64,000 nucleotides of DNA from NCBI GenBank assembly GCA_963669155.1, contig OZ022584.1:14362179-14426178 (forward strand), read 5' to 3'. The position numbers were made by a program, and so were the translations under genes. Every line of letters begins with the position of its first letter. Position 1 is the stretch's first letter. The notes below the pieces were generated by a model that ran no database searches, was not told the origin of the DNA, and was given only the letters and a program-made list of their open reading frames with translations. Origin of the DNA: Arbacia lixula. Its lineage: Eukaryota > Echinodermata > Echinoidea > Arbacioida > Arbaciidae. Shown here piece after piece: positions 54,401 through 57,400 of this stretch.

Positions 54401-57400
54401 TAACCATGCGGCTGCAAAATGCAAAGCTGTATCTTTTCTCAAGTTTTATTCAAAGGCTTATTTATGATTCTCCATGTATCTTTCAGATTATTTTTAGCAT
54501 GTTTTAATTGATTCATATAGTAATTTCTTTTTTTTTTTTGATGAACTTCAGCATTTACTATGTTTCTATACATGTAGTATACACATTCTTACAATAAACT
54601 GTTGAATTTTGAACAAACTTTGAATACAATGCATTTTTCTTATTGCACATTTTGTTAAGACTTCTATTAAACCATGGCTTCTTATACATGTACTTAGTAC
54701 ATTTCTGTTTATGTTCCACAAGTGGAAAACATCTAATATATATACACAAGTTATTAATTTCATGAACACTTTGAATCTATTATTAACATCACCGTTTTGT
54801 AAACATCTATCCCAGTCGATTTGGCTTAAATCTTCACAAAATCTAGCAGTATTTTGATCATTTATCTCATGTTTATACATAGTTTCAACATATATCTAAT
54901 TGAAACTTGTCATGACAAAAGATGGGAAAGTGATCACTTACGTCGCACATTATAATACCAGATTCTACCATTTTTTCTGGTTGATTTACAAAAATGTTAT
55001 CTATAAGAGATGTAGAATTTTCAGTTATCCTCGTGGGTTTGAGAATCAATGGGGTGAAAGAGTATGTTATTAAAAAGTCAACAAAGTTATCAATAAATTG
55101 ATATTAAAGTAACCAATTAAAATGCATTCCTTATGTTCAGTTGATACCTGAGTTAATGGGTGTTCAAGACAATGCAAACATTCTACAACTGACTGTGAGG
55201 GCGGTCTATAAATGGTAGCAAGAACAACATTTTTGTATTTGGTACAAATTTCTATAAAGAGGGATTCAATACATTCATCAAAAACATCAAGATCAATCTC
55301 CTTACTCTCATGAACATTTGTATCAGTTATAAGTGAAGTTGCAATCATTAGTATTACTGATGTGTCAGATATCATATCAACAAATGTAACTATGCAGAAT
55401 GATTTGTAGTCATCTTGATTATATGCTACTGGTGCTGAATTAATGTCTTCATATGAGATGTCCTAGTAATTCAAATGAGAGTGATTAAATTGCTTACAAT
55501 AGTGAACTCGTAATGAATATTAAAAGGTTGGATTTCATTGGGAAAGCAAAGGTGGGTAGATGAGACAGGTAATAAAGTCCTTTTTTTTCGTGCTGGTCAT
55601 TTGAACAGGCTGACGAGGCCAAGCTGAAGCTGGCTGAGATTGAGGGAAGCAAGGTGGACAACACAGAGAGGCTCAAGATCACCAAGAAGGAAGAGGAAGA
55701 GATCCGCAAGGAGAAGGAAGAGAAGAAACTCAAAGAGGAAGAGGAGGTGCTGGAGATGGAGAGAAAGAAGGTAAGGAATATTTATAAAGGTGACCATGTA
55801 AGTAGTCGCAGCATGTATTGAATCATGGAAATGGTGAAACAGACACATAGGTAGCCATATTAGGTCCCTTGGTGATTTTAGGCAGTCATGGATATGAAAA
55901 TGTTCCTGTGCTGTATTCCTTGTTTTTTCATGTTGTATCTCATTTGTTTATCATTATTTGTTTATCATATGAGAATGGAGATTTTATTTATTTTAAGGCA
56001 TGGAGAAACTACAATATCGAAGAAAGGTAAATTAACTTCATGAAAATATTCCTCACAATTGATATTTGAAGGTGGATGTTACATTTGGACTCAATAAAAA
56101 CGGAGAGAAATCTGCGCTGGGTCGAGATCAGTAACATAATTGTCCACCTTTTACCAGGTATCATTAATACTCCTGGCTCGGAGAGCAGAAATGTGGATAA
56201 AGAATTTTGCTGAATGATGCAAGTGCCTTCGGTGGGCACTTAGGTGAACCTGACACCTCAAGATCCAGAGTCACTGTTCACAACCACGATGCCACTTGGG
56301 CTTCACAATGTGACCTAATGCGAATTTGTCTGTCTGTCTGTGTGTGTCTGTCTGTCTGTCTGTGTTTAGGCTGAGATGGAACGTCTGGAGGCAGAGAAGG
56401 CAGCGGCAGCCGAGGCTCTGGTGGATTCAGCGCCCATCCTGCGCGACACGGCAGAGATGGTCAAAGAAGAACATGTACGTCTAAAAACCTTTTCCAATCC
56501 TCAATAGGCATGTGTATCACTTGTATAGATATTGCAGTGTCTGTTTCAGAGATGGTCAAAGAAGAACATGTATGTCTAAAAACCTTTTCCAACCTTCAAT
56601 AGGCATGTGTATCACTTGTATAGATATTGCAGTGTCTGTTTCAGAGATGGTCAAAGAAGAACATGTATGTCTAAAAACCCTTCCCAACCTACAATAGGTA
56701 TGTGTATCACTTGTATAGATATTGCAGTGTCTGTTTCAGAGATGGTCAAAGAAGAACATGTATGTCTTAAAGCCCTTCCCAACCTACAATGAGGATTTGT
56801 ATCACTTGTATAGATATTGCAGTGTCAGTGACTGTAATGGTCAAAGAAAAGCACAAATGTCTAAAAACCCTCCTGAACTCACAATAGGCATGTCGTTGGC
56901 CTGTAAGTAGAGGTTTGCTTCTAGATGAAGCTAACCAAAGTTTAAGTGTTCACCAGCCAGGGCTTAACTTGAGTTTTACATTTCAGGTTTTAACATCTGT
57001 GTAGGTTGAACTGCATTTTGTTTGATTGTGCTGAAATTGGATATCAGTATTTAAAAAAATATTAAATGAATGCTTATTTGCATGGGGAGAGGTACATCGA
57101 AACACGGAAAAATAGCTTCTGATAATGTCAATTTTAATCGTAAGTTGGCAGAACTTAGTTCTTGAATGCCATTTCATCTGATCGGAATTTTCACAAATCT
57201 TCTAGAATAGCAAACAACTTTTAAGTATGAATGACCACTCTGTGAATAAGTGTATAAAGATGTTGATGATGAGGATCCTCAGTATCACCAAGAGTATTGC
57301 TAGTTGAAAAAAAATATAACAATAATACTCTATAAATGATGGAGGAAACTAATGATGATAGTAATGACTGACAATGATGTATTGCCATGGTGACAGGTGA

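Follow-up and report, generated by a model that had tools for sequence, protein, structure and literature searches.

A 95-bp tandem array at the 3' end of a LETM1 exon in Arbacia lixula, with candidate microexons in its intronic copies

LETM1 and the array at its exon-intron boundary

The analysed DNA (hereafter the window) is a stretch of 64 kb from a 26.4-Mb contig of the Arbacia lixula assembly. Thirteen LETM1 exons were placed by eye on its forward strand, from 45183 to 61980, and they join into an open frame of 751 residues in which the protein start is not included; since the first placed exon begins at an acceptor, at least one exon lies upstream. The joined translation matched the Pfam family LETM1_RBD with 292 bits and EF-hand with 27.1 bits, below the cut-off of 30, and its PDB matches were Mdm38 and a mitochondrial proton/calcium exchanger protein. 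A LETM1 family search of the assembly gave three matches, all of them exons inside the window, and LETM1 seems to be single-copy in this assembly. A processed LETM1 copy that might have recorded splice junctions was considered and set aside, as the single genomic match speaks against it (in a search that skips common words). Rfam at gathering scores and a tRNA scan returned no matches. The mitochondrial contig of the assembly has 15,740 bases; judged by conserved residues, its COX1 is translated best under the echinoderm code, and 6 of 7 gene motifs looked for were present, all of them on the same strand, which by comparison with mitochondrial gene orders suggests a sea urchin or sea cucumber.

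The exon under study (56370-56474, forward strand, 105 nt, phase 0 at its 3' end) is supported by the open joined frame and by the LETM1_RBD match. An earlier note on this DNA had called it exon 10, a tentative number; it is the eighth placed in the window. Its donor (56475-56480, CAT/gtacgt) is weak, with T at -1 and C at +4, and the next exon, the ninth placed, spans 57397-57522 (forward strand) in the same open frame.

A tandem array covers the boundary between this exon and its intron (56452-56893, forward strand; TRF period 95, 4.7 copies, 90% matches, score 670). Gapless comparison in register placed the copy starts at 56452, 56547, 56642, 56737 and 56832. Copy 1 consists of the final 23 bases of the coding exon and 72 bases of intron, and this unit of 23 exonic and 72 intronic bases is repeated with no indels across the 3' end of the exon. 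The exact 95-base period of the earlier note stands in that the copies are gapless; its division of the unit is corrected to 72 intronic and 23 exonic bases, the latter made up of the 20 it had named and a preceding CAG. The repeat itself is far beyond chance. Neighbouring copies differ at 3 (copies 1-2), 4 (2-3), 9 (3-4) and 41 (4-5) of the 95 positions, i.e., decay increases toward the 3' end, and 34-41 positions separate copy 5 from copies 1-4. The 23 exonic bases show zero differences among copies 1-4.

Copies 2-4 carry identical modules of acceptor, 20 nt and donor, tttcag/AGATGGTCAAAGAAGAACAT/gtatgt (with more of the upstream sequence, tattgcagtgtctgtttcag/AGATGGTCAAAGAAGAACAT/gtatgt). 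These candidate microexons lie on the forward strand at 56550-56569 (copy 2), 56645-56664 (copy 3) and 56740-56759 (copy 4), which agrees with the three intact copies and with the junction coordinates 56550, 56645 and 56740 that had been proposed. Copy 5 (56832-56893, forward strand) is decayed, with neither the acceptor nor a GT donor and with 6 of its 23 exonic bases altered (acceptor -7.43, donor -14.47 by generic matrices).

Among copies 2-4, none of the 46 columns of the acceptor-exon-donor block varies vs 6 of the 49 elsewhere in the module (Fisher p=0.016), and the longest stretch invariant in all three modules is 68 (p=0.0024). When the whole unit was considered for copies 1-3, 1-4 and 2-4, the tail for the block was 0.066, 0.059 and 0.075 and the p for the longest run 0.0053, 0.055 and 0.108, respectively. 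Four two-copy repeats of the window showed no clustering of variants (p 0.92, 0.57, 0.18 and 0.44). In a small control of triplets from other arrays, 2/9 reached p of at most 0.0053 and 3/9 p of at most 0.05; both of the strongest came from a 48-bp array and have one unit in common, and a register shift may explain them. The invariance of the block is suggestive. Purifying selection on the units was dropped as a claim, because as many as two of the nine control triplets cluster as strongly and the whole-unit test is weaker.

Splice-site strength and predicted products

Splice sites were scored with generic consensus matrices not fitted to this animal, on which scale the donors of copies 2-4 score 6.25 vs 5.73 for the native donor (4.09-12.44 for true LETM1 donors) and their acceptors 7.23 vs 4.53 for that of the next exon (4.23-10.54 for true LETM1 acceptors). 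In the LETM1 introns, with the array excluded, 31 of 751 AGs score at least as high as the array acceptor and 22 of 932 GTs at least as high as the array donor. Exon-like acceptor-donor pairs number 6 in these introns, and the array contributes 4 of them. Single exon-like pairs are common: across the 210 kb sampled, each 10 kb of strand holds on average 1.93 equally good pairs whose two sites lie 15-60 nt apart. A 50-nt length of these introns is expected to contain about 0.11 acceptors that match the array acceptor in quality; the array acceptor is therefore less beyond chance than the repeat, about one in nine for a fusion product. It is also weakened by AGs at -12 and -21 and by the lack of a yTnAy branch motif in the 45 nt before it.

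All seven pure combinations of the 20-nt units lead to a stop, in agreement with the earlier predictions for inclusion of one, two or three copies. The broader statement that every combination stops holds for these seven but not once other acceptors are admitted. Four donors with three kinds of acceptor give 115 paths, of which 16, including the native one, are open (15/114 non-native paths); restriction to CAG acceptors leaves 21 paths, 2 of them open and the native one again among these (1/20 non-native). An AG two bases downstream of the array acceptor would yield an 18-nt in-frame exon (MVKEEH), albeit one whose GAG acceptor is very weak (0.95); use of the AG located 12 bases upstream, which scores 4.34, would instead give a 32-nt exon. 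Extension of exon 56370-56474 to a downstream donor, whichever of the three is taken, leads to a stop after 45 codons from the exon start, and all 24 paths that begin with the extended exon stop.

Tandem arrays and copies of exon ends elsewhere

Arrays with a period of at least 30 and at least 2.5 copies were surveyed in 21 loci totalling 210 kb (20 random and one beside the window). Eight distinct arrays were counted there (12 TRF rows), and five in the 64-kb window (7 TRF rows); tandem arrays are common here. An exon-like pair was found on neither strand in any of the 12 sampled rows or of the 6 other window rows, and the LETM1 95-bp array is the one among these arrays whose unit holds a true donor.

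Other LETM1 exon ends have local copies as well. By local alignment, exon 51141-51260 has, 92 nt downstream and outside the 95-bp array, a decayed copy of its 3' end and donor (51318-51365, forward strand, 40/48 identical; score 64, where 300 shuffles reached at most 31). Within this copy, a microexon-like part (51327-51352) is flanked by a good pyrimidine-CAG acceptor (8.03) and by a donor that is weak (2.73); by eye, a stop (AGA GGT TAA) would follow if it were spliced in. The last LETM1 exon has a local copy of its 3' end (score 101 vs a shuffle maximum of 55) and one of its 5' end (41 vs 30, about 61646-61684). The end of exon 57397-57522 gave a weaker match with a score of 31, located in the coding exon that follows; this match was left out of the count.

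Exon 3' ends with a copy scoring at least 60 within 450 nt were 3 of 25 (one of them that of the terminal exon), vs 55 of 2039 complex non-exonic tiles (2.7%), a background that includes other parts of the 95-bp array. The excess has p=0.029, and p=0.136 without the case of 56370-56474. The idea that exon ends are especially prone to duplication was accordingly rejected, as the excess is not significant without the given case. For an XPNPEP1-like gene, whose exon ends are approximate (placed by tblastn), copies were found at 0 of 12 exon ends within 450 nt and at 1 of 12 within 1200 nt. The mostly decayed exon-end copies of the window suggest the sort of remains that a background mutational process would leave.

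Several further repeats were noted in the window. In the intron preceding the last LETM1 exon (61816), the copy at 61646-61684 is a decayed, partial version of that exon's acceptor and beginning; 61891-62455, in the presumed 3' UTR, carries degenerate tandem repeats of the final LETM1 codons together with the stop. A 48-bp minisatellite of about 25 copies (49894-51141) reaches the true acceptor before 51141, and its units, by eye, have tgtctttgctgcag-like decoy acceptors. A GGTCACTGACT-type array (58775-58993) begins 9 nt past the last base of LETM1 exon 58570-58766. On the minus strand, a (TCA)n array and two decayed copies of an XPNPEP1-like exon's 3' end come after that end (13470-14670), and reverse-transcriptase-like frames at 52700-55460, in the intron before exon 55609, probably belong to a broken LINE-type retrotransposon (by eye).

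Origin and possible use of the array

Chance duplication is the simplest explanation of the array, and a breakpoint inside the exon accounts for most of its anatomy. We consider it probable that a tandem duplication carried the donor along and that the copies are mostly ignored as nearly neutral decoys, perhaps leaking degraded transcripts. The duplication would have had its left end 23 nt inside the exon and taken 72 nt of intron along; upon amplification to five copies each would have inherited the exon's own weak donor, and the junction, which fuses intronic tgtctgttt to exonic CAG/AGATGG, would have created an accidental acceptor. The tgtctgttt/CAG fusion can be read directly in the copies, whereas we infer the order of events. 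Splicing would mostly take place at the native donor (56474) and skip the 20-nt units, and where a downstream donor or unit is taken now and then, the transcript would acquire an early stop with further introns after it and would therefore be degraded. Against a neutral duplication stand the 46-nt blocks identical in three copies while the rest of the module varies. Furthermore, the 33 nt before the array acceptor are absent after copy 5, so a single duplication is insufficient and a further event or decay is needed; no convincing source of these 33 nt was found in the window, the best other match being 15 nt.

The preferred reading leaves room for some use of the array: its donors slightly outscore the native one and complete disuse would thus surprise, and some leak to degraded products is plausible given that IFI6 is reported (PMC4526556) to use downstream repeat units as donors. 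These same observations, together with the stop met by the exon extended to any of the three donors, would favour a cluster of decoys that are used at a steady fraction, sometimes as microexons, such that LETM1 output falls with copy number in an unregulated manner. We regard this as unlikely: costly decoys should be purged, and the inclusion of very short exons needs help. Less likely again is a regulated array in which a splicing factor would switch inclusion and tune LETM1 dosage via nonsense-mediated decay. The stops in all seven pure combinations, the identical splice blocks of the three copies and a UGC upstream of the acceptor would fit such a switch, but the control triplets cluster as strongly in two of nine cases, and the AGs at -12/-21 without yTnAy in 45 nt are unlike eMIC-dependent exons as described in PMC8797185. 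Silent decoys, which the earlier note had offered as its alternative, fit better than its dosage switch, given these control triplets and the mostly decayed exon-end copies elsewhere, even if some leak may occur. The complete version of the idea, in which copy number would set LETM1 dosage via nonsense-mediated decay and slippage of the repeat could alter it, so that the array would act as a splicing rheostat both mutable and length-coded, appears slightly more doubtful still.

An assembly artefact or a wrong copy number is very improbable: the copy number does rest on assembled sequence, but the copies differ mutually, copy 5 is unlike the others, and the array region has one match only in the 607-Mb, 590-contig assembly. 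In-frame protein variation, by 18-nt units adding MVKEEH repeats or by three 32-nt units adding 32 residues, is the least credible; both kinds of path are open, but the 18-nt unit would require a GAG acceptor (0.95) directly after a far better CAG (7.23).

Should the units be spliced in at even a low level, three exons ready for use would have come from tandem duplication and a mitochondrial gene would be under the control of copy number, which would offer a clear example of the birth of new exons. If they are unused, three extra downstream donors that slightly outscore the native one must be ignored by the splicing machinery, which would make this exon a natural test of true-donor choice.

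Poison exons are coupled to nonsense-mediated decay, and the LETM1 units resemble them in that predicted inclusion brings a premature stop before a later junction (LETM1 introns follow downstream). No literature on LETM1 with a poison exon was found, and among the titles listed for LETM1 alternative splicing, isoforms or exons none concerned this array. The closest precedent is the minisatellite at an exon-intron boundary of IFI6 (6-16, G1P3), for which Turri, Cuin and Porter reportedly described multiple splice donors in 1995. According to PMC4526556, donors are reportedly supplied by units further along the repeat, and the multiple-donor work is also cited in PMC2572611. Both genes have a tandem repeat whose unit spans the boundary and whose downstream units copy the exon's donor, but three LETM1 units also have an acceptor and thus repeat an entire microexon, and the unit is 95 bp vs about 12 bp in IFI6. 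Compared with IFI6, use of the downstream LETM1 donors is a prediction from sequence, and compared with poison exons the LETM1 units are likewise candidates. The eMIC (SRRM3/4) exons of flies and mammals have long AG exclusion zones and strong branch points (PMC8797185), and by these fly and mammal features the array acceptor does not resemble them; a UGC near the acceptor is present (TGC in ...atattgcagtgtctgtttcag), a three-base motif of little weight. When introns are gained because exonic sequence that contains a proto-splice site is duplicated in tandem (PMC2891723), exon sequence is likewise turned into new acceptor/donor pairs; the LETM1 exon-like units, however, arise within an existing intron, and the coding frame gains no intron.
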